In this document: positions 2,823-27,013 of the stretch, one piece after another
Layout: each line of letters opens with the position of its first letter
Position numbering within the stretch: the first letter of the stretch is position 1
Assembly (NCBI RefSeq): GCF_001011035.1
Contig: NZ_CP011492.1
Span: 4,757,001 to 4,821,000 of the forward strand
Origin: Streptomyces sp. CNQ-509
GTDB lineage: Bacteria; Actinomycetota; Actinomycetes; Streptomycetales; Streptomycetaceae
Direction: 5' to 3'
Length of the DNA stretch: 64,000 nucleotides
The notes under the pieces: model-generated
Told to the model about the DNA's origin: nothing
The model's database searches: none
Seen by the model: only the letters and a program-made list of their open reading frames with translations
Translations under genes and position numbers: made by a program

Positions 2823-4268
2823 ATGGCTTACGACGATCTCCGCTCGCTGCTGCGGGCTCTGGAGCGCGACGGCGACCTCAAGCGCATCACGGCCGAGGTC
2901 GATCCGTACCTCGAAGTCGGCGAGATCACCGACCGCGTGAACAAGGCCGGCGGACCCGCGCTGCTCTTCGAGAACGTCAAGGGCTCCGCCATGCCGCTGG
3001 CGATGAACGTCTACGGCACCGACCGCCGGCTCCTCAAGGCCCTCGGCCTCGGCTCGTACGCGGAGATCGGCGAGCGCATCGGCGGGCTGCTCAAGCCCGA
3101 ACTGCCGCAGGGCTTCACGGGCGTACGCGAGGCGTTCGGCAAGCTCGGCACCATGGCGCACGTACCGCCGCGGAAGGCGAAGGACGGGCCGGTCCAGGAG
3201 ACCGTGCTCACCGGCGACGACGTCGACCTCGACACGATCCCCGCGCTCTTCACCTGGCCCCAGGACGGCGGGTCCTTCTACAACTTGGGCCTCACCCACA
3301 CCAAGGACCCCGAGACCGGCGTCCGCAACCTCGGCCTCTACCGCCTCCAGCGCCACGACCGCCGCACCATCGGCATGCACTGGCAGATCCACAAGGACAG
3401 CCGCAACCACTACCAGGTCGCCGCCCGCCGCGGCGAGAAGCTGCCGGTGGCCATCGCCTTCGGCTGCCCGCCCGCCGTGACCTACGCGGCGACCGCGCCG
3501 CTGCCCGGCGACATGGACGAGTACATGCTCGCCGGCTTCATCGGCGGCAAGCGGGTCGAGATGGTCGACTGCAAGACCGTGCCGCTCCAGGTCCCCGCGC
3601 ACGCCGAGGTGGTGCTCGAAGGCTGGCTGGAGCCCGGCAAGGAGCTGCCCGAGGGCCCGTTCGGCGACCACACCGGCTTCTACACCCCGCAGGAGCCGTT
3701 CCCGGCGCTGACCATCGACGCCGTCACGATGCGCCGCCGCCCGCTGCTGCAGTCCATCGTCGTCGGCCGCCCGCCGACCGAGGACGGGCCGCTGGGCCGC
3801 GCCACCGAGCGGTTCTTCCTGCCGCTGCTGAAGGTGATCGTGCCGGACATCGTGGACTACCACCTGCCGGAGGCGGGCGGCTTCCACAACTGCGCGATCG
3901 TCTCGATCGACAAGAAGTACCCGAAGCACGCGCAGAAGGTCATGTCCGCGATCTGGGGTGCGCACATGATGTCGCTCACCAAGCTGATCATCGTGGTCGA
4001 CGCCGACTGCGACGTGCACGACCTCCATGAGGTCGCCTGGCGGGCGCTCGGCAACACCGACTACAGCCGCGACCTGTCCGTCGTCGAGGGCCCGGTCGAC
4101 CACCTCGACCACGCCTCGTACCAGCAGTTCTGGGGCGGCAAGGCGGGCATCGACGCCACCGCGAAGCTGCCCGAGGAGGGCTACACGCGCGGCTGGCCGG
4201 AGATGGTCGTCTCCGATCCGGACACGGCGGCGAAGGTCGACGCCCGGTGGCCGGAGTACGGCCTGTGA
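2823..4268 (+). CDS. mqnL: UbiD-family menaquinone biosynthesis decarboxylase
   Basis: A 481-residue UbiD-type decarboxylase that uses prenylated FMN. In the futalosine route it is the likely enzyme removing the carboxyl group of the (prenylated) dihydroxy-6-naphthoate intermediate. Sequence marks are DVDLDTIPALFTWPQDGG near residue 134, NLGLYRLQRHDRRTIGMHW near 165, which binds the prFMN/metal site, and EGPFGDHTGFYTP near 278, containing the acidic residues expected in the active site. Length is normal for UbiD. It overlaps mqnP by four bases (GTGA), and mqnM, the flavin prenyltransferase that makes its cofactor, is 2.5 kb downstream, which supports the MqnL rather than UbiD assignment. Confidence 0.9.
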   Translation: MAYDDLRSLLRALERDGDLKRITAEVDPYLEVGEITDRVNKAGGPALLFENVKGSAMPLAMNVYGTDRRLLKALGLGSYAEIGERIGGLLKPELPQGFTGVREAFGKLGTMAHVPPRKAKDGPVQETVLTGDDVDLDTIPALFTWPQDGGSFYNLGLTHTKDPETGVRNLGLYRLQRHDRRTIGMHWQIHKDSRNHYQVAARRGEKLPVAIAFGCPPAVTYAATAPLPGDMDEYMLAGFIGGKRVEMVDCKTVPLQVPAHAEVVLEGWLEPGKELPEGPFGDHTGFYTPQEPFPALTIDAVTMRRRPLLQSIVVGRPPTEDGPLGRATERFFLPLLKVIVPDIVDYHLPEAGGFHNCAIVSIDKKYPKHAQKVMSAIWGAHMMSLTKLIIVVDADCDVHDLHEVAWRALGNTDYSRDLSVVEGPVDHLDHASYQQFWGGKAGIDATAKLPEEGYTRGWPEMVVSDPDTAAKVDARWPEYGL

Positions 4269-5185
4269 CGGCCGCGGGGAGCGTCGTCGGGCCCGGCCCC
4301 GCCCGGTCCGGCAGCGGGGTGCGGGCGTTCCTGCGGCTGGTGATGATCGAGCACTCGATCTTCGCGCTGCCGTTCGCGTACATCGCCGCGCTCACGGCCA
4401 TGCTGGTCGACGGCGACGGGGCGATCGAGTGGGGGACGCTGCTGCTCGTCACCGTCGCGATGGTGGCGCTGCGGACGTTCGCGATGGCCGCGAACCGGAT
4501 CATCGACCGCGAGATCGACGGCCGCAACCCGCGCACCGCCCATCGCGAACTGGTCACCGGAGCGGTCTCCGTGCGCTCGGCGTGGACGGGCGCGCTGATC
4601 GCGCTGGCGATCTTCCTGGGCGCCGCGGCGCTGCTGAACCCGCTCTGCCTGGTGCTGGCGCCGGTCGCGGCGGTGCCGATGGTGGTCTATCCGTACGGCA
4701 AGCGGTTCACCACGTACCCGCACGCGATCCTCGGCCTCGCCCAGGCGATCGGCCCCATCGGCGCGTGGCTGGCGGTCACGGGGGAGTGGTCATGGCCGGC
4801 GGTGCTGCTGGGGCTCGCGGTGGGCGTGTGGATCGGCGGCTTCGACCTGATCTACGCCTGCCAGGACGTCGACACCGACCGCGCCCAGGGCATCCGCTCG
4901 GTCCCGGCCCGCTTCGGCATCGCGGGTGCGCTGTACGGGGCGCGGGCGGCGCACGTCGTGACGATGGCGCTCTTCGTCTGGTACGCCCTGGCGACGGACG
5001 CGGGCGCGCCGTTCTGGGCCGGCCTGGCGGTGGTGGCGGGCGTGTTCGCGTACGAGCACAGCATCGTCCGCCCGGACGACCTGAGCCGCCTGAACCGCGC
5101 GTTCTTCACGCTCAACGGCGTGATCGGCATCGTCCTCTTCTGCTGCGCGGCGGCAGACCTCTTCGTCCGCGACCTGAGCCTCTGA
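4265..5185 (+). CDS. mqnP: UbiA-family prenyltransferase of menaquinone synthesis
   Basis: A 306-residue integral membrane protein with about nine hydrophobic segments. It should transfer a polyprenyl chain to 1,4-dihydroxy-6-naphthoate in the futalosine pathway. Both Asp-rich UbiA motifs are present: NRIIDREIDGRNPRTAHREL near residue 79 and QDVDTDRAQGIRSVPARFG near 201, which bind the Mg-diphosphate of the prenyl donor. The GTG at 4265 overlaps the mqnL stop (GTGA), so translation is coupled; an in-frame ATG-type start upstream at 4247 would lie inside mqnL and is less likely. Specific prenyl length cannot be read from the sequence. Confidence 0.9.
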   Translation: MTAAGSVVGPGPARSGSGVRAFLRLVMIEHSIFALPFAYIAALTAMLVDGDGAIEWGTLLLVTVAMVALRTFAMAANRIIDREIDGRNPRTAHRELVTGAVSVRSAWTGALIALAIFLGAAALLNPLCLVLAPVAAVPMVVYPYGKRFTTYPHAILGLAQAIGPIGAWLAVTGEWSWPAVLLGLAVGVWIGGFDLIYACQDVDTDRAQGIRSVPARFGIAGALYGARAAHVVTMALFVWYALATDAGAPFWAGLAVVAGVFAYEHSIVRPDDLSRLNRAFFTLNGVIGIVLFCCAAADLFVRDLSL

Positions 5186-6823: not shown

Positions 6824-7558
6824 GTGGAGCCGCCTCACCAGACGCCGTACGAGAACCCGGACGGACCGCCGTCCGAGGGGCCGTACGCCGGGCAGCCGGG
6901 CCGCGACCGGCGCCGGCCCTGGGTCGTCGGCGTCTCCGGCGCCTCCGGCACCCCGTACGCGGCCGCCGTGCTGCGCGCGCTGCTGGCGGCCGGGGAGGCC
7001 GTCGACCTCGTCGTCAGCCGGGCCGCGCGGCTGACGGTGCTGGACGAGACGGGCGGCCCGTTCCGCGACGCGCACTGGCGCGACGACCTGCGGCGCTGGC
7101 TCGCCGCGGGCGCCGAAGGACGGCCGGACGCCTTCGGTCCGGTGGACCTCTCCGGCGTACGGCACTGGGCGGCCGGCGATCTGGCGGGCGGCCCCTCCTC
7201 CGGTTCGTACGCCGCGAAGGGCATGATCGTCGTCCCGGCGTCGACCGCCGCGGTGGCCGGCATCGCGCTCGGGCTCTCCAAGGACCTCCTCCAGCGCGCG
7301 GCGAGCGTGACGCTGAAGGAGGGCCGGCCGCTGGTCGTCGTCGTACGGGAGACGCCGCTGCCCGGGCCGACGCTGCGGCAGATGGTCGCCCTGGACGAGG
7401 CGGGCGCCGTGGTCCTCCCGGCCGCACCCGCCTTCTACGCCGGGGCCACCGGCATCCAGGACCTCGTGGACTTCGTCGCCGGCCGCGCCCTTGACGCCGC
7501 GGGCGTGGCGCACAAGCTCTATCGCAGATGGGAAGGGGAGCTGGGGCGCTCCCGCTGA
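6824..7558 (+). CDS. mqnM: UbiX-type flavin prenyltransferase for MqnL
   Basis: A 244-residue flavoprotein of the UbiX/Pad1 family, which joins a dimethylallyl group to FMN to make the prFMN cofactor needed by MqnL. Marks are GVSGASGTPYAAAVLRAL near residue 35 (FMN and prenyl site), VPASTAAVAGIALGLSKDLL near 147, and VVVVRETPLPGPTLRQM near 182. About 30 extra N-terminal residues are Pro/Gly-rich and probably disordered; a shorter start is possible but no better ribosome site was seen. It lies between a divergent rhomboid gene and the AsnC regulator, in the same order as the S. coelicolor futalosine cluster as I recall it. Confidence 0.88.
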   Translation: MEPPHQTPYENPDGPPSEGPYAGQPGRDRRRPWVVGVSGASGTPYAAAVLRALLAAGEAVDLVVSRAARLTVLDETGGPFRDAHWRDDLRRWLAAGAEGRPDAFGPVDLSGVRHWAAGDLAGGPSSGSYAAKGMIVVPASTAAVAGIALGLSKDLLQRAASVTLKEGRPLVVVVRETPLPGPTLRQMVALDEAGAVVLPAAPAFYAGATGIQDLVDFVAGRALDAAGVAHKLYRRWEGELGRSR

Positions 7559-7625: not shown

Positions 7626-8078
7626 ATGGACGCCGTCGACAGACAGCTCATCCAGGCACTGCGGGAGAACGGCCGGGCCTCGTACGCCGAGCTGGGCCGG
7701 CTCGTGGGGCTCTCCGGGCCCAGCGTCACGGACCGGATCAACCGCCTGGAGGCCGCCGGGGTGATCACCGGCTACCGCGCCACGGTCGACGCCGCCCTGC
7801 TGGGCCGGGGCGTCACCGCGCTCGTCGGGATCTCGCTCTCCGAGGCGGTGGACCACGACGACGTCGCGGACCGGCTGCGGGACCTGCCGGAGATCGAGGA
7901 CTGCTTCTTCATCGCCGGTGCGGATTCGTTCATGCTCAAGGTGCGGGCGCCGGACGTCGACGGGCTGGGGAAGACGGTGCGGCGGATGTCGCGGATCAAG
8001 GGCGTCTCGCACACGGCGACGACGGTGGTGCTCTCCACGATGTGGGAGAGCAGGGTGGGGGAGATCGCGGAGGAGTAG
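7626..8078 (+). CDS. Lrp/AsnC-family transcriptional regulator
   Basis: A 150-residue regulator. Residues 1-60 form the AsnC winged-helix domain (DRQLIQALRENGRASYAELG, then GLSGPSVTDRINRLEAAGVI), and residues about 65-150 the RAM ligand-binding/oligomerisation domain (DCFFIAGADSFMLKVRAPD). Such regulators usually sense amino acids. The ATG at 7626 follows mqnM by 67 bp and the mqnE-like gene follows by 63 bp, so it sits inside the menaquinone gene row and may control it; that is inference from position, not a known regulon. Confidence 0.88.
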   Translation: MDAVDRQLIQALRENGRASYAELGRLVGLSGPSVTDRINRLEAAGVITGYRATVDAALLGRGVTALVGISLSEAVDHDDVADRLRDLPEIEDCFFIAGADSFMLKVRAPDVDGLGKTVRRMSRIKGVSHTATTVVLSTMWESRVGEIAEE

Positions 8079-8141
8079 GCCGCGTAGGCTCGGATACGCG
8101 CAGATGCGCAGGAACGTGACTTACGGGCTGGGAGGCGGCGC

Positions 8142-8759
8142 GTGGACGCAGGGCTCAGGCGCGAGCTGGCGGAGAAGGCGCGCGCGGGCGCACGGCTGAG
8201 CCGGGCGGACGGCGTCGCGCTGTACGGGAGCGACGACCTGGCGTGGCTGGGCGGGCTCGCGCACGAGGCGCGGACGCGGCGGCACGGGGAGCGCGGGTAC
8301 TTCGCGACGGCCGCGGACCCCGCCGAGCCGGTGGCGGAGGTCTCGTACGGCGGGGAGGACCCCGCGCAGACCGTCGACGTGCTCCTGGCGCTCCGGGACC
8401 GGCAGGACGCCGGCGCCGGCCTGCTGGCCGTCGTGCCGCTGGCGGCGGGGCGGGTCACGGGCGCGGCGGCGCTGAAGACGTTCGCGGTGGCGCGGCTGCT
8501 GCTGGACAACGTGCCGCACGTACGGGCCGCGTGGACCGCGTACGGCACGCAGACGGCGCAGCTCGCGCTCCAGCACGGCGCGGACGACTTCGCCCCGGCG
8601 CCGGGCGCGGCCGGCACGCTCCCGGCCGAGGAACTCGTCGAGCTCATCCAGGACGCGGGCCTGCACCCGGTCGAGCGCGACGCGCGCTACGCCGCCGTCC
8701 GCGAGCACGCGGGCCCGGACCCGGAGCGGCGCGAGGCGCCGCAGCCGATGCGCTTCTGA
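8142..8759 (+). CDS. MqnE-like protein with the entire radical-SAM core missing
   Basis: A 205-residue protein at the locus where aminofutalosine synthase MqnE (about 385 residues) is expected. Residues 1-48 match the MqnE N-terminus (SRADGVALYGSDDLAWLGGLAHEARTR in pieces), and residues 108-205 match its C-terminus (ALKTFAVARLLLDNVPHV, GTQTAQLALQHGADD, and the last ERREAPQPMRF). Between them about 180 residues, including the CX3CX2C iron-sulphur motif, are replaced by some 60 Ala/Pro/Gly-rich residues. The protein has no cysteine at all, so it cannot carry a radical-SAM cluster or make aminofutalosine. The frame is open and codon use is normal, so it is either a young in-frame deletion or a repurposed protein. 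GTG start with GGGAGG six bases before. Confidence 0.8.
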   Translation: MDAGLRRELAEKARAGARLSRADGVALYGSDDLAWLGGLAHEARTRRHGERGYFATAADPAEPVAEVSYGGEDPAQTVDVLLALRDRQDAGAGLLAVVPLAAGRVTGAAALKTFAVARLLLDNVPHVRAAWTAYGTQTAQLALQHGADDFAPAPGAAGTLPAEELVELIQDAGLHPVERDARYAAVREHAGPDPERREAPQPMRF

Positions 8760-9839: not shown

Positions 9840-9947
9840 ATGACGACGACGGTGCCTGCGCTTCGCATGCCTACGAGCCCTCTGCTCGTGGCGCGCCTGC
9901 ACGTCGATCTCTGCCGCTGCCTGTCCGCGGCATGTCAGAGCCGCTAG
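9840..9947 (+). CDS. Cys-rich leader peptide (putative attenuator)
   Basis: A 35-codon ORF with ATG at 9840 and TAG at 9945-9947, 123 bp upstream of the symporter start. Its C-terminal part, RLHVDLCRCLSAACQSR, has three cysteines in eight residues and matches the R-x-HVDLCR-x-SAxC signature of actinobacterial leader peptides found in front of sulphur and cysteine genes. In mycobacteria, similar Cys-rich upstream ORFs control translation of downstream genes in response to cysteine (established for that group). A -10-like TAGTCT at 9827-9832 ends seven bases before the ATG, so the mRNA may be leaderless. Coding status is inferred from the signature. Confidence 0.65.
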   Translation: MTTTVPALRMPTSPLLVARLHVDLCRCLSAACQSR

Positions 9948-10070
9948 TCCCCGCGCTCTGACCGGTCACGCACCACATTCCCCAAGTAGCAGACGCGCGC
10001 CCGTCGTCCCGGTCCCGGCACCACCGTGCCCGGACGAGGCGGCCCGGCGCGCCCAGTCACGGAGACGCCC

Positions 10071-11423
10071 GTGTCCACACCCACCCCCGCCCCCACCGCG
10101 CAGCCGCGCAGCGGCTTCCGGATACCCAAGGTGCCCTTCTGGGCCCAGATCCTCGCCGGCCTCGTCCTCGGCGTGCTCCTCGGCTGGGCCGCCCGTACCG
10201 GCGACGTCGCCTGGCTGAAGGACACCCTGGACCAGATCGGCACCATCTTCGTCCAACTGCTCAAGCTGGCGGTCGCCCCGCTGGTGTTCTTCGCCATCCT
10301 GGTGTCGATCACCAACCTGCGGAACGTCAACAACGCCGCCCGCCTCGCGACCCGTACCCTGCTGTGGTTCTTCGCCACCTCGCTGATCGCGGTCGCCATC
10401 GGCCTGGCCATCGGCCTGCTCACCAACCCCGGCGCCGGCACCGACCTGTCCCCGAAGGACGGCGCCGCCCCCGAGGACAGCGGCTCGTGGATCGACTTCC
10501 TCACCGGGATCATCCCGACGGACGTCATCACGCCCTTCACCGAACTGAACGTGCTGCAGATCGTCTTCATGGCCGCCGCCCTCGGCGTCGCCGCCCTGAA
10601 GCTCGGCGAGAAGGCCCAGCCGATCATCGCGTTCAGCGAAACGATTCTGGAACTGCTGCAGAAGGCGCTGTGGTGGGTCATCCGCCTCGCCCCCCTCGGC
10701 ACCGTGGGCCTCATCGGCTTCGCGATCGCCGACTACGGCTGGAACCTGATCAGCAAGTACGCGACCTTCACCGCCGACGTCTACATCGGCTGCGCCCTGG
10801 TCCTCTTCGGCGTCTACCCGCTCCTGCTGGCCACGGTCGCCAAGGTCAGCCCCCTGCAGTTCTTCCGCGGCGCCTGGCCCGCGATCCAGCTCGCCTTCGT
10901 CTCCCGCTCCTCGGTCGGCACCATGCCGGTCACCAAGAAGGTCACCGAACGCCTCGGCGTCCCCAAGGAGTACACCTCCTTCGCGGTCCCCTTCGGCGCG
11001 ACGACGAAGATGGACGGCTGCGCCGCGATCTACCCGGCCCTGGCGGCCATCTTCATCGCCGAGATCTTCGACGTCAGCCTGGGCCTCCAGGACTACATCC
11101 TGATCGCCTTCGTCTCGGTCATCGGCTCCGCCGCCACCGCGGGCCTCACGGGCGCCACCATCATGACCACCCTGACCCTCTCCACCCTGGGCCTCCCCCT
11201 GGAGGGCGTGGGCCTGCTGCTGGCGATCGACCCGATCCTGGACATGGTCCGCACGGCGACGAACGTCGCGGGCCAGGCGGTGATCCCGGTGCTGGTCGCG
11301 TCGCAGGAGAAGATCCTGGACCGCGACATGTACGAGTACGCCACCAGCTTCGACCTCGACGACCCGGACCCGGTGGACTCCCAGCAGCCCGCCCAGAGCC
11401 CTGCGGTCACAGTACCGGCCTGA
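10071..11423 (+). CDS. Dicarboxylate/amino acid:cation symporter (DAACS family)
   Basis: A 450-residue membrane carrier of the DctA/GltP/TcyP family, which couples uptake of C4-dicarboxylates, glutamate or cystine to Na+ or H+. Family marks: QLLKLAVAPLVFFAILVSIT near residue 62, SRSSVGTMPVTKKVTE near 280 (hairpin HP1) and GATTKMDGCAAIYPAL near 309, where the usual NMDGT is KMDGC. The last 55 residues are cytoplasmic. GTG 10071 has GGAG six bases before; GTG 10026 is the alternative. The Cys-rich leader upstream hints at cystine or sulphur-linked control. The 3' end of this gene is the sequence repeated three times downstream. Confidence 0.85.
   Translation: MSTPTPAPTAQPRSGFRIPKVPFWAQILAGLVLGVLLGWAARTGDVAWLKDTLDQIGTIFVQLLKLAVAPLVFFAILVSITNLRNVNNAARLATRTLLWFFATSLIAVAIGLAIGLLTNPGAGTDLSPKDGAAPEDSGSWIDFLTGIIPTDVITPFTELNVLQIVFMAAALGVAALKLGEKAQPIIAFSETILELLQKALWWVIRLAPLGTVGLIGFAIADYGWNLISKYATFTADVYIGCALVLFGVYPLLLATVAKVSPLQFFRGAWPAIQLAFVSRSSVGTMPVTKKVTERLGVPKEYTSFAVPFGATTKMDGCAAIYPALAAIFIAEIFDVSLGLQDYILIAFVSVIGSAATAGLTGATIMTTLTLSTLGLPLEGVGLLLAIDPILDMVRTATNVAGQAVIPVLVASQEKILDRDMYEYATSFDLDDPDPVDSQQPAQSPAVTVPA
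11256..11422 (+). repeat. Parental copy (A) of the symporter 3'-end repeat
   Basis: This is the 3' coding end of the symporter gene. A 103-bp core, 11261-11363, recurs without indels at 13339-13441, 15911-16013 and 16941-17043. By eye the copies differ from this one at about 6, 2 and 5 positions. In all copies the core keeps the protein frame (VIPVLVASQEKILDRDM). The tail after the core is different here from the tail shared by the copies at 13 kb and 17 kb. Confidence 0.9.
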
Positions 11424-11440
11424 CCTGCTCCACAACGCGC

Positions 11441-11479
11441 GTTGCCCGCACCCTCCCGACTGGGCAGGGTGCGGGCAAC
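11441..11479 (+). terminator. Hairpin terminator of the symporter gene
   Basis: A perfect 14-bp inverted repeat (GTTGCCCGCACCCT at 11441-11454 and its complement at 11466-11479) around an 11-base loop, 18 bp after the stop codon. There is no clear T run, as is usual in high-GC actinobacteria. An equivalent hairpin follows repeat copy B. Confidence 0.85.
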
Positions 11480-11527
11480 GGCCTGCTTCAGTGCTTTTGC
11501 GTTCGAGAATGTCCTGTCCAAGTCCTC

Positions 11528-11917
11528 ATGCGGCCGTTCCTCGACGCGGTGCCGTCTCAGCTCCGCCACGTTCTTGTGAGTGCCCTGTCACGTGAAGTCA
11601 CCGTGTTTGGCGAAGAGGAATCAGGGGCGATGCTGGAGGCTCTCGCACGGCAGCACGACCTGTGGGCGAACATCAACGCAACGCCGGTGGAAGACCGGCT
11701 CGGAGCCGACCTGATCTACTACCACGAGGCCACCCAGAGCTTTGTTCTCGTGCAGGTCAAACGACTACCGTCGGCTGCGGGCGACCGGTGGATGTACGTG
11801 GATCAGCGGTTGCTCGGGCAACTCGACCGTCTGGACCGGGTCGCGGCTATGAGCAGGACCCCTCAGGTGCCTGACCAGTGTGGACGTCCCTGCTCGGCCC
11901 GGCCAGATGGCCACTAG
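11528..11917 (+). pseudogene. Fragment of a putative PD-(D/E)xK nuclease-like protein
   Basis: The open frame from ATG 11528 encodes about 95 plausible residues and then unrelated sequence. The block GADLIYYHEATQSFVLVQVK near residue 58, followed by WMYVDQRLLGQLDRLDRV, has the D-x(n)-QxK spacing of PD-(D/E)xK nuclease folds, and I recall similar W-Y-x-D-x-x-L-x-x-QL proteins in streptomycete accessory regions. No complete domain is left and no partner gene lies beside it, so I read it as a truncated gene at the left end of cassette 1. The fold call rests on the one motif. Confidence 0.4.
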
Positions 11918-11918
11918 C

Positions 11919-11985
11919 ATGCCGTCCACCTGGCCGCTGCGTGTCCGTCTAAGTGACCACGAAAGTGCCGTCCATGTGGCCGTTG
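11919..11985 (+). repeat. Two 20-bp imperfect direct repeats before the DUF4143 gene
   Basis: TGCCGTCCACCTGGCCGCTG at 11920-11939 recurs as TGCCGTCCATGTGGCCGTTG at 11966-11985, 17 of 20 bases the same and 46 bp apart. They lie 28-95 bp before the ATPase start and could be binding sites for a regulator or part of a cassette end. Nothing more is supported. Confidence 0.5.
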
Positions 11986-12013
11986 ATGTTGGATGTGTGG
12001 CAGCGTGGGACGT

Positions 12014-13267
12014 ATGTCTACCCCTCGTGACCTCATCCCGCGCCAGGCGGAGCACCTGGTGAGCGATTCCCTGGAGGACACGCGCGTCGTCCTGATCAAT
12101 GGCGCCCGGCAGGCGGGTAAGTCCACTTTGACCCATTTGATCACTGGGGGTCGCCCGGATGCGGTTATTCGGCTGCTCGACGACAGGGCGACATTGCAGG
12201 CTGCCCGGGATGATCCGGTGGGTTTCGTCGAGCATGACGCCTTGATGGTCATCGACGAGATTCAACTGGTGCCTGAGCTGCTGCGCTCGATCAAAGTCGC
12301 GGTCGACCTGGATCCGACTCCCGGCAGGTTCCTGCTCACCGGCTCCTCCCGGATCCTGGCCCTGCGCACGCTGCCGGACGCACTGCCCGGTCGTATGGAG
12401 GTGATCGAGCTGTGGCCGTTCTCGCAAGGCGAGCTGCACGACGGCGCCGACCGGTTCATCGACGCCGCGTTCGCTCACGGTCCTGCCCTCAAGCACACTT
12501 CTGCTCTGCGTAAGCGCGACTACCTGGAGCGAGCCGTCGTCGGCGGCTTCCCGGAGGCGGTTCGGCGCAACTCGCGGCGCCGCTCCGCGTTCTTCAACTC
12601 CTACCTCTCCACCTTGATCGAACGCGATGTGCTGGAGCTGGCGAGCATCGAGCGACACGGCGAGCTGCTCAAGCTCCTCGCTTTGCTCGCGGGGCGGGCA
12701 GGTGGCCTCCTGGTCCCCGGGACGCTCGCCGGCGCATCCGGTATCCCGCGCACCACCCTCGTGCGTTACCTGGAATTGCTTACCTCGGTATTTCTCATCA
12801 AGACCATTCCAGCCTGGTCCTCCGGCGTTTCGCATCGTGCCGTAGCCACCGGCAAACTCGGCTTCGTCGACACCGGAATCGCCTGCCACCTCATCGGCCA
12901 GGACGTGCACCGGCTGGCCGAACCCGATGGCGCGGCGGGTCCCATGCTGGAGAACTTCGCAGTCATGGAAATTGCCCGCCAGTTGACGTGGTCTGAGCAG
13001 CAGGGACGTCTATACCACTACCGCACCAAGGACAAGCTTGAGGTCGATGCCGTCATCGAGACGCCCGATGGCCGGGTGATCGGAGTCGAAGTCAAGGCCG
13101 GCGCCACAGTTCGTACCGACGACCTGGCCGGACTGCGGAATCTGGCCCGTCTCCTGGGCGATCGATTCGTCGCCGGCTACGTCCTCTACACCGGGGCTCA
13201 GACACTCCCGTTCGGCGACCGCATCCGCGCCCTGCCGATGGAGGCGCTGTGGCACCTCGCCCCCTGA
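12014..13267 (+). CDS. ATP-binding protein with C-terminal DUF4143 domain
   Basis: A 417-residue protein with an AAA_14-type ATPase domain (about residues 20-150) and a DUF4143 domain (about 200-380). Walker A is NGARQAGKST near residue 33, Walker B is LMVIDEIQL near 79 and sensor TGSSR near 110. The C-terminal EVDAVIETPDGRVIGVEVKA has the D...ExK spacing of a nuclease-like fold. These proteins are scattered among bacteria and archaea, often in variable regions; a role in DNA or stress defence is suspected but not proven. It is the only intact gene of cassette 1, and ends about 50 bp before repeat copy B. Base composition is milder (less GC-extreme) than in neighbouring core genes. Confidence 0.85.
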   Translation: MSTPRDLIPRQAEHLVSDSLEDTRVVLINGARQAGKSTLTHLITGGRPDAVIRLLDDRATLQAARDDPVGFVEHDALMVIDEIQLVPELLRSIKVAVDLDPTPGRFLLTGSSRILALRTLPDALPGRMEVIELWPFSQGELHDGADRFIDAAFAHGPALKHTSALRKRDYLERAVVGGFPEAVRRNSRRRSAFFNSYLSTLIERDVLELASIERHGELLKLLALLAGRAGGLLVPGTLAGASGIPRTTLVRYLELLTSVFLIKTIPAWSSGVSHRAVATGKLGFVDTGIACHLIGQDVHRLAEPDGAAGPMLENFAVMEIARQLTWSEQQGRLYHYRTKDKLEVDAVIETPDGRVIGVEVKAGATVRTDDLAGLRNLARLLGDRFVAGYVLYTGAQTLPFGDRIRALPMEALWHLAP

Positions 13268-13313
13268 CTCCAGCGTCAGCAGGCCAGAGCACACCGGAGC
13301 GGCCATCGGGCCA

Positions 13314-13548
13314 ACATACCTACATGTGGTCCGGCGACGAACGTCGCGGGCCAGGCGGTGATCCCGGTGCTGGTCGCGTCACAGGAGAAAATCCTGGACC
13401 GCGACATGTGCGCCAACGCCACCAGCTTCGACCTCGACGACCCGGCCCCCCACGGACTCCACCTCCTCCAAGACCCCGTCACAGCAGCGGCCTAACCGCC
13501 TGCCCCGACGCGACGCCCGCACCCCGCAGTCCGAGGGGTGCGGGCGTC
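13314..13548 (+). repeat. Displaced symporter 3'-end, copy B, with its own terminator
   Basis: The copy starts at ACATACCTACATGTGGTCCGG (13314-13334; first part shared with copies C and D), then follows the symporter 3' end in frame to a TAA at 13493-13495. The tail encodes PAPHGLHLLQDPVTAAA, unlike the tail of the intact gene. A 14-bp perfect hairpin, 13512-13525 with 13535-13548, corresponds to the symporter terminator. It has no start codon or upstream part and so is a gene end without a gene. Confidence 0.9.
13512..13548 (+). terminator. Hairpin carried by repeat copy B
   Basis: Perfect inverted repeat GACGCCCGCACCCC (13512-13525) with its complement at 13535-13548 and a nine-base loop. 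It matches the position of the symporter terminator relative to the repeat and shows that the duplicated block reached past the stop codon. Confidence 0.8.
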
Positions 13549-13836
13549 CGCATGCGCACCCTCGTCAGCCCTGCGGTTCTTGGGTAGGTCGGTGTCATTC
13601 CCGGGTTGGTGGCGGTTGCCCACACGCATACGCGCGTCGGCTGATCGCGCGCGACCAGGGGCTGGTACCGGCATGGCGTCAGATGCTGCTTGGGCGTCGC
13701 GGGCAGTCGTCCGCGTCGGCGCGCTCACTCATATGCCGGAGGTGGTACCAGAGAAGGGGCTGCCGAGTGATCAAGGTCGACGTCCAGACTGCCACTTCTG
13801 TCGGTGGTGAGAGGTACATGGGTAGAACGGGAAAGC
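13549..13836. other. Unassigned stretch between copy B and the DUF4276 gene
   Basis: About 290 bp with lower GC than the core genome. Short frames exist on both strands (for example one on the plus strand ending CHFCRW at 13810) but none resembles a known protein or has a ribosome site. It holds the 3' end of the leftward DUF4276 transcript and nothing else that I can support. Confidence 0.5.
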
Positions 13837-14499
13837 CTACCGCATGAGGAGTTGGCGTATCCCGGATACGAAGCTGTTGAAGCTGGTCGACCGATTCACG
13901 TCCGGATTCAAATGAGGACCGATCTTGCGCCCCCATTCTGGTTTCGACGCAATCTTGATGCCATGCGATCGAAGAATTTTCTCGAAAGCATCGGAGCATT
14001 TGCCGGTCACCGAATCAGGATCACCACGGTACGCGCGCGGTACGCTGCTCGTAACTTTAGGAAATCCATGGACAACCGCATCCCAATCGCCGAAGTACCA
14101 ACTCTCCAACTCGCGCACAGCGATTCGGTTCAAGACCTCGAAATTACCCTCTGGCCCTCGCTTGGTTCGAGGTGTCAGGCCAGCGTCCAGGGCTATCGAG
14201 TCCAGTCGTCGTTTCAGATCCCGGCAGTCATCATTATCGCGATCATCAAGGACGGCTACTCGGAAATCCTCGCCCCTCCTGCGGGAGGCCGCGTAACCTT
14301 GTAGTCGATCAGGAAGTTTTTTCAGGAGATCCGGCTTTCCTTGGAACTGGCGGATCCCGATGCGAACGTTGCGGCCTTCAAGGATCTTCGCGAGTAGATG
14401 GCGGAGGGCCACGCCTGCGGACTCTTCCTCCACCAGAACTTCCAGACGGATGGGGGTCGGATGTGCCTTGGGTTTTCCCTTTTTTCCTTTGCTGACCAC
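13837..14499 (-). CDS. DUF4276 protein, likely effector or sensor of an ATPase-linked defence pair
   Basis: A 220-residue protein with the DUF4276 pattern: LEVLVEEESAGVALRHLLAK near residue 20, FRVAVLDDRDNDDC near 78 and the family's RIAVRELESWYFGDWDAV near 125. The acidic EEE/DDRDND positions suggest a metal-binding, Toprim-like fold; that is inference. It begins with GTG three bases after the stop of an AAA ATPase gene, so both are translated from one mRNA. ATPase + DUF4276 pairs are frequent in bacterial defence islands and resemble the PARIS/AbiL-type design of a sensor ATPase with a nuclease-like partner. The DNA is clearly AT-richer than the surroundings, which suggests recent transfer. 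Confidence 0.8.
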   Translation of the reverse strand: MVSKGKKGKPKAHPTPIRLEVLVEEESAGVALRHLLAKILEGRNVRIGIRQFQGKPDLLKKLPDRLQGYAASRRRGEDFRVAVLDDRDNDDCRDLKRRLDSIALDAGLTPRTKRGPEGNFEVLNRIAVRELESWYFGDWDAVVHGFPKVTSSVPRAYRGDPDSVTGKCSDAFEKILRSHGIKIASKPEWGRKIGPHLNPDVNRSTSFNSFVSGIRQLLMR

Positions 14500-14502
14500 G
14501 GT

Positions 14503-15696
14503 TCACTCCCCGAGATCGGCAACGGGAGTGGTCGGTACGGGGACTTCTTCAAAATAGTGTTCCTGCCACAGTGTGCCCAGCAGTGCTCCCTGCTCAAGCA
14601 TGTCCATCACGAGTGGGATGGAGTTCGGGCGGACAACCCGAGTGTACCCGTGAGCGTCTCGGTACAGAGCGATCACTTCATCGGGCCTACAGGAGTTCAC
14701 GAAATCGTGTGAATGGGTTGTCACCAGCACCTGGGACAGTTCGCTGGAATTTCGACACTGATGGGCAAGGCCGGATAGCACTGTGGGGTACAGGTGATTC
14801 TCCGGTTCTTCGATCCCGATAAAGGGTGCCGGGTCGGGATCGTACAGCAGGGTGAGGTAGGAGAGAAGTTTCAGAGTCCCGTCTGAGGCGTTGCTGGCCA
14901 ACACGCCCTCGTCGAATGGCGCATCCTTGATGAAGAGGACTAGTCGCCCGTCAGGTGACGTGTCATAATCTACGCGCTCAAGTGCGGGAACGGTTTCTTG
15001 AAGGGCCTCTATGACTGCTTGCAGGCGTTTCGGGTGATTTTCTTTCAGGTATTGGAGGACGTTGCTCAGGTTGTCGCCGGATCGGGATAGCTGCTCTTGG
15101 GGCCCAGCAATTGGTGACTTTCGTTCCTCTGCGACGGAAAGATATGAGAGATACCATCCAGAGATAAACCGGCGAAGCGCCGCAACGCGCGGGTGTGTCC
15201 GGAACTGCCCCAATGCGTTGACGGCCAGTTTGTCCGAGCCATCCAACTGCTCGGATGTCTTCTTTCCTGTGGTCTCGTCCACTACGTATCCTGATCCGTG
15301 GTGGAAGTCGAGGATATGCTGAGGTCGACCCTGCGCGGGGGCGACGGTCCACCGTAGCCATTCTCGGCTTACCACGGGACGCCCCTTCTCCTCTTCAATC
15401 TCCAGGCGGTAGGTGAGGAGTCTTGTTCCGGGCTGTTCCCGATACGAGATTTGGATGGCGATAGGGCCGTCAGCGCCCCGAGAGCGAAGTTGACGTTGCC
15501 CCCCCCGTTGGTCCCACGCGTTACGCACCCCGAGGGTGAAGCACGTCTCCAGAAATGCGAATACGTCGAATAGCGTGGACTTTCCGCTTCCGTTGGGGCC
15601 CACCAGAACCGTGAATGGTTTCAGTTTCTTGATCTCGACGTTCTGCAGGACACGATAGTTCTCAATCTTGATCGCCTCAATCACAGGTGGTCGCAT
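14503..15696 (-). CDS. AAA/ABC-type ATPase (RecF/OLD-like), partner of DUF4276
   Basis: A 397-residue ATPase of the AAA_15/21 (SMC/RecF-like) group, starting IEAIKIENYRVLQNVEIKKL. Walker A is VGPNGSGKSTLFD near residue 33, the signature helix LSRSGDNLSNVLQYL near 210, Walker B PFIGIEEPENHLYP near 304 and the H-loop VLVTTHSHDFVNS near 332, so ATP hydrolysis should be intact. There is no Toprim domain in the protein itself, unlike OLD nucleases; the DUF4276 partner may supply the effector. Together they form cassette 2, lying between repeat copies B and C, on the strand opposite to the symporter. Function as antiphage defence is likely by context but unproven. Confidence 0.85.
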   Translation of the reverse strand: MRPPVIEAIKIENYRVLQNVEIKKLKPFTVLVGPNGSGKSTLFDVFAFLETCFTLGVRNAWDQRGGQRQLRSRGADGPIAIQISYREQPGTRLLTYRLEIEEEKGRPVVSREWLRWTVAPAQGRPQHILDFHHGSGYVVDETTGKKTSEQLDGSDKLAVNALGQFRTHPRVAALRRFISGWYLSYLSVAEERKSPIAGPQEQLSRSGDNLSNVLQYLKENHPKRLQAVIEALQETVPALERVDYDTSPDGRLVLFIKDAPFDEGVLASNASDGTLKLLSYLTLLYDPDPAPFIGIEEPENHLYPTVLSGLAHQCRNSSELSQVLVTTHSHDFVNSCRPDEVIALYRDAHGYTRVVRPNSIPLVMDMLEQGALLGTLWQEHYFEEVPVPTTPVADLGE

Positions 15697-15885
15697 GGAC
15701 GCTCCTCGTCGAACTCGCGCAGTGCCGTGACCCTGTGGGGCGCACTCTGTCAAGTGTCCCATCCTAGAGTCCCAAATCTGCGCTGAGTGCTGCACCGCGG
15801 CGAGGCTTTCCGATCCGGCTCCTACCGTGGGCGCCATGAGGCCCCTCGCCCCTGAACTCGGGCGAAGCGGGCTGGCGCACGACTG
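15697..15885. other. Upstream region of the ATPase-DUF4276 pair
   Basis: 189 bp between the ATPase start and repeat copy C. It must hold the leftward promoter of the pair. No gene or clear operator was found. Confidence 0.5.
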
Positions 15886-16013
15886 ACATACCTACACGTG
15901 GTCCGGCTGCGAACGTCGCGGGCCAGGCGGTGATCCCGGTGCTGGTCGCGTCGCAGGAGAAGATCCTGGACCGCGACATGTACGACAACGCCACCAGCTT
16001 CGACCTCGACGAC
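15886..16013 (+). repeat. Displaced symporter 3'-end, copy C (tail lost)
   Basis: Begins with ACATACCTACACGTGGTCCGG at 15886-15906 and follows the symporter sequence to 16013, where homology stops abruptly at GACGACC. In the 103-bp core only two bases differ from the intact gene (GAGTAC becomes GACAAC). The terminator and tail seen in copies B and D are absent, so the right junction has been cut by another event. Confidence 0.9.
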
Positions 16014-16137
16014 CGCCGTTCACGACCAGGAAACCGTTGCTATACCGGCCGCGATCGTCTGCATCCCGCTGAGCGAATTCGGTCGGTGGGTCTATCACGC
16101 GTACTGTTTCGCGCGGGCGCGGCAGGGCTTGAGGCGG

Positions 16138-16515
16138 TCAGGAGCTGAGGTCCAGGACTCGTACCTGTTGGCCCTCCCACCGTTCCGGGGCTGTGGTGGC
16201 CAGCACTGCCCCGTCGGGACGGTCCGGGGTGGGCTGGGCCGCGTGGCTGCTGTGGGCTGCGGCCCAGGTCTTCTGTTTCGCCACCGCCAGGGCGGCGGGC
16301 AGATCGAGGTCCAGGACGGTGATGCCGGGCAGGGCCGCGAGGTGCTCGGCCGTTCCCGGTCGGTGGCGGTCGGCTTCCACGAGCGCGCACGCCGGGGCGT
16401 AGAGGAACCACCCTGGTTCGGCATGGGCCCGGTGGATGAGCCGGGAGGTGAGGACGTTGCCTTGTCCGGCCGATGTCATCGCGGTGTCGTCCAGGACGAT
16501 GTGCAGGTCGGTCAC
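16138..16515 (-). CDS. PIN-like toxin of a VapBC-type pair
   Basis: A 125-residue protein starting with GTG at 16515: DLHIVLDDTAMTSAGQGN, then ACALVEADRHRPGTAEHLAA and a C-terminal PDGAVLATTAPERW. The spaced acidic residues (D near 8, E near 57, D near 106) fit a PIN ribonuclease active site, though this streptomycete family is divergent. Its start overlaps the stop of the ribbon-helix-helix gene by four bases (GTGA), the normal antitoxin-toxin order. As a toxin it would cleave RNA when the antitoxin is lost. It is the body of cassette 3. Confidence 0.65.
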   Translation of the reverse strand: MTDLHIVLDDTAMTSAGQGNVLTSRLIHRAHAEPGWFLYAPACALVEADRHRPGTAEHLAALPGITVLDLDLPAALAVAKQKTWAAAHSSHAAQPTPDRPDGAVLATTAPERWEGQQVRVLDLSS

Positions 16516-16769
16516 GAACCGATGACCTGGTCCAGGCGCCGGTCCAGCTCGCTGTCGAGGTTCTGCTGCTCGGCCGCGGTAGGCGCGTATCCGTTCCAGG
16601 CCCTGAGCGCCTCGCGGGCCTTCTCCGCCCGTTCCGCACGCTCGGCCGGAGTGAGCAGGCCCGCGGCGAGGCGGGCCAGGTAAGCGCGCAGGGACATGCC
16701 TTCGGCCGCCGCGACGGCGGCGAGTCGGTCCTTGGCTTCCTCGGGGATGCGAACGTTGGCGTCGGGCAT
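16512..16769 (-). CDS. Ribbon-helix-helix-type antitoxin
   Basis: An 85-residue protein: residues 1-40 (MPDANVRIPEEAKDRLAAVA, then AEGMSLRAYLARLAAGL) form a ribbon-helix-helix DNA-binding domain, followed by a Glu/Ala/Arg-rich helix (TPAERAERAEKAREAL) that would wrap the toxin. ATG 16769 is chosen because GGAAGGAG lies seven bases before it; a GTG at 16787 is less likely. It probably represses its own operon through the palindrome just upstream. Confidence 0.75.
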   Translation of the reverse strand: MPDANVRIPEEAKDRLAAVAAAEGMSLRAYLARLAAGLLTPAERAERAEKAREALRAWNGYAPTAAEQQNLDSELDRRLDQVIGS

Positions 16770-16796
16770 CGGCAGGCTCCTTCCCACCGCCCCAGC

Positions 16797-16816
16797 GTAC
16801 GGGTACGTACCCGTAC
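16797..16816. promoter_or_regulatory. 20-bp perfect palindrome, likely operator of the toxin-antitoxin pair
   Basis: GTACGGGTACGTACCCGTAC is self-complementary over all 20 bases and is followed by a further CCGTACGCC. It is built of GTAC/GGGTAC units and lies 28 bp upstream of the antitoxin start, where a ribbon-helix-helix repressor would bind. Binding is inferred. Confidence 0.7.
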
Positions 16817-16917
16817 CCGTACGCCAAAGAGCCGCTCCAGCGTATGCCCTTGAGCGCGCTTGGCCACCTGACCGACCCGGACGCAGGTACCCACACGCAG
16901 CGGGTTCGCTCCCTGCC

Positions 16918-17132
16918 TGACCTACACGTGGTCCGGCCGCGAACGTCGAGGATCAGGCGGTGATCCCGGTGCTGGTCGCGTCGCAGGAGAAGATCCTGGA
17001 CCGCGACATGTACGACAACGCCACCAGCTTCGACCTCGACGACCCGGCCCCCCCACGGACTCCAACTCCTCCAAGACCCCGGTCACAGCAGCGGCCTGGC
17101 CACCACCGCTCCCCACGCGACGTCCGCACCCT
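16918..17132 (+). repeat. Displaced symporter 3'-end, copy D (frameshifted tail)
   Basis: Begins TGACCTACACGTGGTCCGG at 16918-16936 and carries the 103-bp core (16941-17043) with about five differences from the intact gene, including GAGGATC for GCGGGCC. Its tail is close to that of copy B (CACGGACTCCA...), but a run of C bases at 17045-17053 shifts the frame, and only the left arm of the terminator survives. It marks the outer end of the array. Confidence 0.9.
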
Positions 17133-17385
17133 GTATCCGGCTCTGCGCCGCTTGACCAGCCGACGGCCCGGCTTCGGCCCTCGTTTGAGGAGTGCGGCTT
17201 CCGCGAACTCGTCCAGGGCGGCCTCGATCCGGTCGTACGCGCGGTAACCCTGCCCGGCCCGGTTCTCCGGTCTCCTTCGCGATCTGGCCGGCGATGGAGG
17301 AGGCGCGGCGGTGCGCTTTCAGTAGAGCGTCGGGTAGAAGGGCGTGCCTGTTCCAGGGTCGCGTGCGTGGGGCGGTGTGGCCGGG
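17133..17385 (-). other. Degenerate coding remnant of unknown family
   Basis: The minus strand encodes two plausible helical segments in different frames: ALLKAHRRASSIAGQIAKET, and then YDRIEAALDEFAEAALLKRG with a Lys/Arg-rich tail. A frameshift separates them and neither has a start or a ribosome site. I do not recognise the parent family; it looks like the end of a gene that was broken when the array was formed. Confidence 0.35.
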
Positions 17386-17646
17386 TCAGGTGTGTGGCGG
17401 CTGGGGGCCGTCCGTGCCGTAGTTCGGGTTCGCCTGGTAGATGCCGGTGAGCGCGCCGTCAGGATCCACCTCCCAGGCCCCGATTATTGCGCTCGGCGGC
17501 ACCTCTCCATGGGGATCATCGACCATCGCTTCGTCGATCTCGTACACCCAGCCGCCGGGATGGCGCCGTGCCTCAGCCATCAGCTCGGGCGGCGCTTTCC
17601 GCGAAGACCGAGCCGAGACGGCCCGTCGTCTGAAAAGCCGTCCCAT
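17386..17646 (-). CDS. Small conserved hypothetical protein
   Basis: An 86-residue soluble protein starting at ATG 17646, with an Arg-rich first 17 residues and the blocks EARRHPGGWVYEID and EVPPSAIIGAWEVDPDG. I have seen this PGGWVYEID/AIIGAWEV pattern in small streptomycete proteins of unknown function. There are no cysteines, membrane segments or known motifs. It lies outside the repeat array and transcribes toward the degenerate remnant. Confidence 0.6.
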   Translation of the reverse strand: MGRLFRRRAVSARSSRKAPPELMAEARRHPGGWVYEIDEAMVDDPHGEVPPSAIIGAWEVDPDGALTGIYQANPNYGTDGPQPPHT

Positions 17647-17794
17647 CCCGCTTCCCCTCCTCAGCAGTTGGCCCCCTCAGCCATCCTTCCCGCACGGGCG
17701 GGTGCCGAAAGCACCGGATTGCCCGTGCAGCCGTTCGCTGGGTGGGGCGTCGTACGGGCGTGAGGGGCATCCGTTGGCCGTCGGGGCGCTTTTC

Positions 17795-18159
17795 CGCCTG
17801 CCTTCGTGCTGGGCCCCCCGCTGACCGGGGTGCTGTGCGGGTATCTCGCCGCCTCGCTCATCATGCGCTCGCGTGCCTACGGCGATGCCGGGAACGAGCC
17901 GGGACACCGTTTCGCCCTCATCTTCTTCGACCTCCCCGCTCTCATGCCGGGCTGTGCTCTCGCCACATGGATCGCCTCGGGTTTCCTGTGGTGCCCCGTC
18001 CGGCCCGCTTCCCTGGAAGGCGGCCGTCTTCACCGTGGTGCCGATCTCGCTGGAGGTCGTTCGCGTGCCTCGGCACCCTGGACGGGGTATCCCGGCGACT
18101 CCGGCCTCTGCCCGGCCGACAACATCCCGCCCTGGTGGCCTTCGTGGCTACCCGCGTGA
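17795..18159 (+). pseudogene. Frameshifted small membrane protein gene
   Basis: Three reading frames each carry a piece of one protein. Frame one gives LGPPLTGVLCGYLAASLIM and RFALIFFDLPALMPGCALAT to about 17990; a second frame gives LPWKAAVFTVVPISLEVV at about 18010-18060; a third gives CLGTLDG; and frame one returns with GYPGDSGLCPADNIPPWW. The last piece is a typical ending of a streptomycete hypothetical membrane protein. At least three indels are needed to join them, so the gene is dead unless the sequence has errors here. Confidence 0.6.
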
Positions 18160-18194
18160 GCGGACCGGGGCAGCAGCTCTGCCAGACTTCTCCG

Positions 18195-18667
18195 GTGATC
18201 GTCAGACTTGCTACGGAGCCGGACTTCGGCGGGTTTCTCCGGCTTGCGGGTGGGGTCGAGCAGTGGTTCGGGGCCATGGTCGACGAGCCCGGGTTTCACG
18301 AGGCCGTGCGGGAGCACATGCGGCGGGGGGCTGCCCTCGTCGCCGTTTCCGGGGGGTCCGTTGTCGGGGGTTGCTGTTCGGGGGTGAGGCGCCCGTTTTC
18401 CGGGTGCACTGGCTGGTGGTCGACGAGGACGTGCGGGGGAGCGGTGTCGGGCAGGCACTGATGGAGGAGGCGGAGCGGCGGTTCGTGCGGGGGCGGGGCG
18501 GGTGGGTCGAGGTGGTCACGTTCGGGGCCGATCACCCCGGGGCCGTCGCCAGTGGGGCGCGGGTCTTCTACGAGCGGCTGGGGTTCAGGCCCGCCGAGGC
18601 CGCCCCGCACGGGCCCGAAGGGGGTTCGCGGCAGGTGTTCCGGCGGGCGGTGGGGGAGCCGGGGTAA
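18195..18667 (+). pseudogene. GNAT acetyltransferase split by a one-base frameshift
   Basis: From GTG 18195 the frame gives IVRLATEPDFGGFLRLAGG and GAALVAVSGGSVVGG, and at about 18368, within or next to the GGGGG run of GTCGGGGGTTGCTG, the homology moves to another frame: LLFGGEAPVFRVHWLVVDED, then VRGSGVGQALMEEAERRFV (the acetyl-CoA loop) and ARVFYERLGFRPA, to a TAA at 18667. Together these make a complete GNAT domain of about 157 residues. The homopolymer makes a sequencing error possible; otherwise it is a recent pseudogene. Confidence 0.75.
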
Positions 18668-18750
18668 GTGAGGGGTGCGGGTTCGTACTCAGGCGGGGGT
18701 GAGTACCTTCGCTCTGGTTCGGGCCGCGGGCCGGGCACGAGGGTGGGGGT

Positions 18751-19170
18751 ATGCGTCGTGTGCTGCGGATTCTTCTCTTCCAACTACTCTCCCTCGTCCT
18801 CCTGGCCGGCGCCGCCGCCGGGGCCTGGGCCGTGTGGCTCGGCTGGGACCAGGAGCGCGAGGTGAGCGGTGACACCGGGACCGGGCCGTACGCGGCGTGG
18901 CAGGTCGGCGGGCTGGTGCTGACACTGCTCGTCGCCGTGGCCGTCGTCGCGTACGTGCGGCACTTCGTGCCCGCCGTGCTCGGGTCGACCGCCGGGCTGA
19001 CCTTCGCCTCGTACTACGACTGGTCGGACGACAACACCGGGCTCTTCGCCGTCGGGGTCGCCCTCATCCTCATGGGGACCTTCGTCGGCTCCGCCCTCGT
19101 CGCCGTCGCCGTGGGTGCCGTGCGCGGCGAGCCCGACGCGGGGCAGGGGGCCTTCGCCGTCTGCCGCTGA
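18751..19170 (+). CDS. Hypothetical membrane protein with four segments
   Basis: A 139-residue protein with an N-terminal signal-anchor-like helix (residues 5-30), a segment at about 50-68, one at about 74-88 and a last one at about 100-124, joined by short polar loops (FASYYDWSDDNTG). I do not recognise a family. The ATG at 18751 follows GGGTGGGGGT. It stands alone between the dead GNAT gene and the acyl-CoA ligase, with 159 bp to the latter. Confidence 0.55.
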   Translation: MRRVLRILLFQLLSLVLLAGAAAGAWAVWLGWDQEREVSGDTGTGPYAAWQVGGLVLTLLVAVAVVAYVRHFVPAVLGSTAGLTFASYYDWSDDNTGLFAVGVALILMGTFVGSALVAVAVGAVRGEPDAGQGAFAVCR

Positions 19171-22839: not shown

Positions 22840-23880
<1,041 letters not shown>

Positions 23881-25816: not shown

Positions 25817-27013
25817 GTGACCACCGATCTGCAGGCAGTCCTGGACCGCGCCGCCGCGGGCGGCCGCGTCACCCCCGGCGAGGCCCTCGACCTGTACCGC
25901 TCCGCCCCGCTGCACGCGCTGGGCGCCGCCGCCGACGCCGTGCGCCGCCGGCGCTACGCCGGGACCGAGCACATCGCGACGTACATCATCGAGCGGAACA
26001 TCAACTACACCAACGTCTGCGTGACGGCCTGCAAGTTCTGCGCCTTCTACGCGCCGCCCACCGCGAAGGACAAGGGCTGGATCCGCGGCCTGGACGACAT
26101 CCTGCGCCGCTGCGAGGAGACCGTGCAGCTCGGTGGCACCCAGATCATGTTCCAGGGCGGCCACCACCCCGACTTCGGCGTGGAGTACTACGAAGAGCAC
26201 TTCTCCGCCATCAAGAAGGCGTTCCCGCAGCTCGTCATCCACTCCCTCGGCGCCTCCGAGGTCGAGCACATGGCGCGCATCTCCGGCACCACCGCCGAGG
26301 ACGCCATCCGCCGCATCCACGCCGCGGGGCTGGACTCCTTCGCCGGCGCCGGTGCCGAGCTGCTGCCGGCCCGGCCGCGGCAGGCCATCGCGCCGCTGAA
26401 GGAGAGCGGCGAGCGCTGGCTGGAGATCATGGAGAGCGCGCACGGGCTGGGCGTGGAGTCGACGTCCACGATGCTGATGGGCACGGGCGAGACGAACGCG
26501 GAGCGGATCGAGCACCTGCGGATGATCCGGGACGTGCAGGACCGCACCGGCGGGTTCCGGGCGTTCATCCCGTACACCTACCAGCCGGAGAACAACAAGC
26601 TGAAGGGCCGCACCCAGGCGACCACGCTGGAGTACCTGCGGATGATCGCCATCGCGCGGATCTTCCTCGACAACGTGGCGCACATCCAGGGCTCCTGGCT
26701 CACCACCGGCAAGGACGTCGGCCAGTTGACGCTGCACTACGGCGCGGACGATCTCGGCTCGGTGATGCTGGAGGAGAACGTGGTGTCCTCCGCCGGGGCG
26801 CGGCACCGCTCGAACCTGCGCGAGATCATCGAGATGATCCGCGGCGCCGACCGGGTGCCGGCGCAGCGGGCGACGACATACGAGCATCTCGTGGTGCACG
26901 ACGACCCGGCGGACGACCCCGTGGACGACCGCGTCGTCTCGCACCTGTCGTCCACCGCCCTCGACGGCGGTACGGCGCACCCGGAACTGACGCTGGTGGA
27001 GGCCGACCGGTGA
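25817..27013 (+). CDS. mqnC: Cyclic dehypoxanthinyl futalosine synthase
   Basis: A 398-residue radical-SAM enzyme that cyclises dehypoxanthine futalosine in the menaquinone pathway. The cluster motif is CVTACKFC at residues 68-75 (CX3CX2C), followed by [14 protein letters not shown] near 110, which binds SAM, and [15 protein letters not shown] near 252. The C-terminal ~40 residues after [10 protein letters not shown] are Asp-rich and not part of the fold. GTG start; stop overlaps menG by four bases. It is intact and about twice as long as the coreless MqnE-like protein at 8.1 kb, its paralogue. Confidence 0.95.

Follow-up and report, generated by a model that had tools for sequence, protein, structure and literature searches.

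Where would aminofutalosine come from when the gene standing in the place of mqnE has lost the radical-SAM core of aminofutalosine synthase? The question is raised by a stretch of 64,000 nucleotides from Streptomyces sp. CNQ-509 (hereafter the window; its genome, G000, is a single contig of 8.04 Mb). To our knowledge the radical-SAM enzyme MqnE is the only one known to catalyse this step, and a second way to aminofutalosine would be worth knowing, since in Helicobacter and Campylobacter the futalosine route has drawn discussion as a target for antibacterials. The gene in question follows those of UbiX (MqnM) and of an AsnC regulator, which is the usual position of mqnE in Streptomyces, and, as the first-pass annotation had it, the remaining pathway genes of the window are all whole:

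2823 to 4268, forward strand: UbiD-family decarboxylase (mqnL), intact
4319 to 5185, forward strand: prenyltransferase (mqnP), intact
6824 to 7558, forward strand: UbiX-type prenyltransferase (mqnM), intact
7626 to 8078, forward strand: AsnC/Lrp-type regulator, adjoining mqnE in nearly all relatives
8130 to 8139, forward strand: likely ribosome-binding site, GGGAGGCGGC, proposed from its GGAGG-type pattern only
8142 to 8759, forward strand: mqnE-derived gene of a putative pseudoenzyme, 205 codons, GTG start, open frame
8142 to 8303, forward strand: retained N-terminal segment, residues 1-54, from the alignment and dN/dS
8304 to 8456, forward strand: remnant of the radical-SAM core, residues 55-105, CX3CX2C lost, drift mostly near neutral
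8457 to 8756, forward strand: retained C-terminal segment, residues 106-205, with most of the CofH_C match and the PQPMR tail
23014 to 23880, forward strand: chorismate dehydratase (mqnA), intact
25817 to 27013, forward strand: mqnC, intact, CX3CX2C present, above the family cut-off
27010 to 27705, forward strand: menG-type methyltransferase, intact

A GGAGG-type sequence also precedes mqnE in many relatives, whether their gene is dead or intact, and a GNAT protein gene follows the short gene here as it does in many of them. Further downstream, between a DctA-like transporter gene and the next conserved gene (11400-18800), few genes show typical codon use and the region looks like inserted DNA; it contains an ATPase-like open reading frame (11993-13267) and another of 220 residues (13837-14499).

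That a short open gene without the core occupies the normal mqnE locus is borne out by the reading frame, the profile score, the alignment and the total absence of cysteine, hence of the CX3CX2C radical-SAM motif. The G+C content at codon positions 1, 2 and 3 (0.85, 0.54 and 0.98) is normal for a coding gene here. Against the NCBIfam profile of MqnE (TIGR03700) the 205-residue protein scores 111.6 bits, far under the cut-off of 434.55, in two stretches that cover the ends only (profile positions 2-48 and 214-351), and the sole Pfam match is CofH_C (PF19288), at 41.4 bits for a gathering score of 27. Alignment with an intact MqnE of 387 residues shows that about 54 N-terminal and about 100 C-terminal residues of aminofutalosine synthase have been kept, and that some 182 residues, CX3CX2C among them, are missing in several blocks with the frame maintained. 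The protein thus resembles MqnE (SCO4494 of S. coelicolor; closest solved structure, the aminodeoxyfutalosine synthase 6xi9/6xig) in its locus, its N-terminal segment, its C-terminal CofH_C region and its PQPM tail, and differs from it in lacking the motif and most of the barrel. To judge from its sequence it should be unable to act as a radical-SAM enzyme, and aminofutalosine synthase activity is not expected without the cluster. An AlphaFold model of the monomer, built from three sequences, is of low confidence. As for the bridge between the two ends, which had been thought foreign or heavily diverged, VDVLLALRDRQDAGAGLLAVVPL aligns with a 23-residue stretch of MqnE, leaving about 20 residues without a clear counterpart, and relatives grade from near-full-length cysteine-less proteins to the short form; as far as alignment can tell, the bridge is drifted MqnE, not foreign sequence.

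The most trivial explanation of such a gene, the collapse of a normal mqnE during assembly, might find comfort in the fact that some drafts do have a broken mqnE (G119, G164, G338, G755). The same short open frame recurs, however, in independent assemblies: in G047 (94% identity), in G105 (89%), and in the named records Streptomyces aculeolatus DSM 41644 and Streptomyces sp. CNH099 (86% each), as well as in a 91% identical fragment, stopping short of the core, from G050, evidently S. phytophilus. Because of this recurrence, and with graded intermediates present in other species, an assembly fault, as read from the sequences, can be considered excluded for the short gene. Besides these five relatives (one with a fragment), CX3CX2C is also missing from the genes of eight further Streptomyces, which are longer or shortened in another way. 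Among 150 congeners searched, the short gene had matches in G047, G105, G050 and G073, the last with a 58% identical relative.

It was also conceivable that an active mqnE lay elsewhere, as the first-pass annotation had suggested. None was found in the whole genome of CNQ-509, where MqnC and FbiC alone, beyond the short protein, resemble MqnE, nor in the other single-contig genomes, and the suggestion holds for one relative only, G368, in which a dead native mqnE coexists with an intact, acquired MqnE. By the family cut-off, 379 of 393 congeners have an intact MqnE, and further cases of a dead gene accompanied by an intact copy could hide among them. When the others were inspected individually, G002 passed once its pieces were joined, and in three (G119, G164, G338) mqnE proved to be broken by contig ends or frameshifts. 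Eleven of the 393 (G000, G047, G050, G105, G073, G298, G045, G297, G088, G138 and G272) lack an intact MqnE for another reason: in all but the fragmentary G050 the frame is open and CX3CX2C is gone, the gene being near full length (331-339 codons) in G045, G088, G138 and G272 and short in the others. An intact mqnE might still be carried by a plasmid or a region absent from the assemblies, the acquired second copies of MqnE in G368 and G145 showing that such events happen; yet four of the dead-gene genomes are single contigs and others consist of 3-5, and eleven assemblies would all need to have missed the gene, which makes this very improbable. Since almost none of the dead-gene genomes holds another MqnE, another source must make aminofutalosine. 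Two fragmented assemblies have MqnC with no detected piece of MqnE, which may be a gap or a true loss: a Streptomyces draft in 400 contigs (G693, locus L394) and a genome of another family in 560 (G527, L395).

The way in which the core was lost is best seen in an alignment of 13 dead forms with seven intact MqnE. The cysteine segment is absent from all 13, and loss of the barrel is graded, greatest in the 205-residue form, with both ends still recognizable throughout. None displays the disrupted frame of a pseudogene: all 13 are open, with length changes in frame only. Fifty-six residues are invariant among them, nearly all at the ends and including the PQPMR tail. Despite their separate origins, all 13 also share a Phe to Leu change just before DNVPH (residue 121 of the window protein) and an Asn to Asp change at residue 180, which may be due either to the lifting of catalytic constraint or to a new function common to them.

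These separate origins were established with a tree of UbiD, MqnP, UbiX, AsnC and MqnC from 29 genomes, in which the dead forms fall into four groups and well-supported branches force at least three changes. A single ancestral loss, suggested by a smaller tree of UbiX and AsnC, is rejected with five genes (p-AU 0.003 for a single clade of dead forms). There were, then, at least three origins of the dead form, and probably four, with the reservation that the tree may describe the history of the locus or pathway, not strictly that of the species, because its genes belong to the same pathway. We can see in this a natural experiment: on several occasions a radical-SAM enzyme has been whittled down to its two ends, which marks the parts that matter beyond catalysis.

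What happened to these genes afterwards can be followed through dN/dS, estimated in three regions for ten dead-gene pairs, which overlap in membership and so are not independent. For the former core the values are 0.52-1.20 in nine of the ten, and 0.28 in the last (G088/G138). The C-terminal segment gives 0.14-0.54 in every pair, the upper bound exceeding 1 in two of them (G000/G105, 0.51, 0.20-1.90; G088/G298, 0.54, 0.28-1.02), and the N-terminal segment 0.16-0.52 in eight, with 0.89 for G000/aculeolatus and 0.92 for G298/G368 and an upper bound above 1 in five pairs; the intervals are wide throughout. Pairs of intact MqnE remain at 0.03-0.09 in every region. As read from these comparisons, purifying selection acts on the C-terminal end and, for the most part, on the N-terminal one, for which the evidence is weaker. 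The ends thus appear mostly constrained and the core mostly drifting; this, together with the repeated origins, disposes of the idea of a lone strain with relaxed substitution.

Must we then see in these genes the remains of a slow decay, where the step was taken over and the gene is eroding, its ends not yet gone? Whole-gene dN/dS is far higher in the dead genes (0.29-0.74) than in intact MqnE (0.05-0.09), the core drifts nearly neutrally, and the 400-contig draft mentioned above (G693) has no piece of MqnE at all. Such erosion is nonetheless hard to reconcile with frames that stayed open in 13 separately altered genes, with the constraint on the C-terminal segment in all ten pairs and with the invariant residues, and we consider it unlikely. 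Neutrality does not extend over the whole gene, as would befit a pseudogene: the core is mostly near neutral and the C-terminal segment is not, even if some intervals include 1. A middle that drifts, a C-terminus and mostly an N-terminus that are constrained, and frames that remain open better fit a translated protein that works through parts other than the catalytic core than a dying gene. Catalytic residues are lost and the gene appears to be kept by selection, to judge from dN/dS values with wide intervals, as expected of a functional pseudoenzyme. In known pseudoenzymes and prozymes, catalytic residues have been lost while a remnant of the fold is kept under selection. Dead MqnE is alike in this respect and differs in that the catalytic core itself has been cut away, repeatedly, so that the ends alone remain.

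The metabolic context is that of an essential pathway with a single step neatly missing, every other recognized enzyme being kept. With the exception of the drafts G050 and G073, all the dead-gene genomes searched have MqnA and MqnD; MqnB is present in ten of ten, and MqnC in all. Recourse to the classical Men pathway was ruled out by the lack of a MenB above the cut-off, family matches being far below it in dead-gene and control genomes alike. Direct production of futalosine after loss of the deaminase was also discarded: each of the seven dead-gene genomes examined retains the adenosine-deaminase-like group nearest to the deaminase encoded between mqnC and menG in G527, a linkage that makes this group a likely aminofutalosine deaminase. 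Because MqnA to MqnD and the candidate deaminase are kept and MenB is absent, the missing activity is specifically that of aminofutalosine synthase, and the absence of a second active mqnE in G000 leaves, as the first-pass annotation had also contemplated, an alternative enzyme.

This enzyme was looked for among radical-SAM proteins and in mqn neighbourhoods, and not found there. When the PF04055 matches of G000, G272, G088 and G297 (one genome per lineage) were compared with those of a single control genome, G066, no lineage-specific replacement emerged, the proteins of G000 that recur in the other three being also present in G066 with similar identity; a SPASM-like radical-SAM protein is common to G088, G272 and G297 and missing from G000. 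No lineage-specific gene was found beside mqnB or mqnD or in the mqnE-mqnC region. A sigma-factor and FAD-oxidoreductase pair lies beside mqn genes in two dead lineages (L267, 661-2930; L121 of G045, 9876-12110) and not at the control loci examined, and a third lineage (G298) has the oxidoreductase alone near its mqn genes; considered as a replacement, the pair looks like a common, unrelated one. The replacement may be unrelated to radical-SAM enzymes, or a housekeeping enzyme in double duty, or MqnC itself.

The last two possibilities deserve discussion. Pseudoenzyme partners, the prozymes, activate enzymes in trypanosomes, and the boldest alternative is that, by analogy, the dead protein would bind MqnC and enable it to make aminofutalosine too. 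MqnC is its closest remaining homologue, the retained C-terminal segment falls in the region common to CofH and MqnC, and the radical-SAM comparison offered no lineage-specific replacement; still, no substitution of MqnC is common to at least three dead lineages and its evolution shows no relative acceleration, while G368 keeps its dead gene despite an intact MqnE, so that this remains a long shot. A bifunctional MqnC was set aside for the same want of shared substitution and acceleration. MqnC alone, or some other housekeeping radical-SAM enzyme of Streptomyces, might also carry out the reaction of MqnE on the side, which would agree with the genus-wide distribution of all the radical-SAM proteins of G000 common to the four lineages. 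But MqnC bears no trace of shared adaptation, and intact MqnE should then not be so constrained elsewhere (0.05-0.09); we hold this to be quite improbable.

We can therefore return to a non-catalytic protein as the preferred reading, in line with the repurposing that had been proposed at the outset. In at least three, probably four, lineages the cysteine motif was always lost, and in some almost the whole barrel, with the rest of the futalosine route intact. With a probability of roughly 60%, we infer that these are convergent pseudoenzymes derived from MqnE and kept for a non-catalytic role, aminofutalosine being made by another enzyme. The aminofutalosine step would have passed to this enzyme (in G368, plausibly the acquired intact MqnE), the core would then have been free to drift, and the ends would persist because of a second, non-catalytic job that may already exist in intact MqnE; most probably they would form a module that binds or scaffolds a putative partner in the menaquinone pathway. 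That G368 keeps its dead gene open beside an intact MqnE argues for retention for something other than aminofutalosine synthesis. More tentatively, and at clearly worse than even odds, several Streptomyces lineages would independently use an aminofutalosine-forming enzyme that is not recognizably radical-SAM, and the amputated MqnE would assist either this enzyme or MqnC as a partner without catalytic activity. Separate regulation is hinted at by SCO4494, reportedly targeted by the envelope-stress factor sigma-E, with a product that rises under vancomycin (PMC6767563); its sigma-E-like promoter sequence was not found upstream of mqnE in the genomes examined here.

The open full-text literature, where subscription papers are mostly uncovered, yielded nothing on MqnE as a pseudoenzyme or on a different enzyme that makes aminofutalosine, and the relevant passages of Ravcheev and Thiele propose a replacement for MqnD and none for MqnE (PMC4746308). 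A parallel does exist for the acquired genes of G368, which encode MqnA, MqnC, a ferredoxin-like protein and MqnE and could cover the missing step: this set, like that of G145, recalls gonM1-M3 of the PM100117/PM100118 cluster (PMC4763440). In contrast with the remnants discussed here, a set of the gonM type holds an intact MqnE, and neither G000 nor any other of the genomes lacking MqnE has one. Both second mqn sets (L317 in G368, L318 in G145) adjoin a dTDP-glucose-dehydratase-like gene, resembling in this the PM100117 naphthoquinone cluster.
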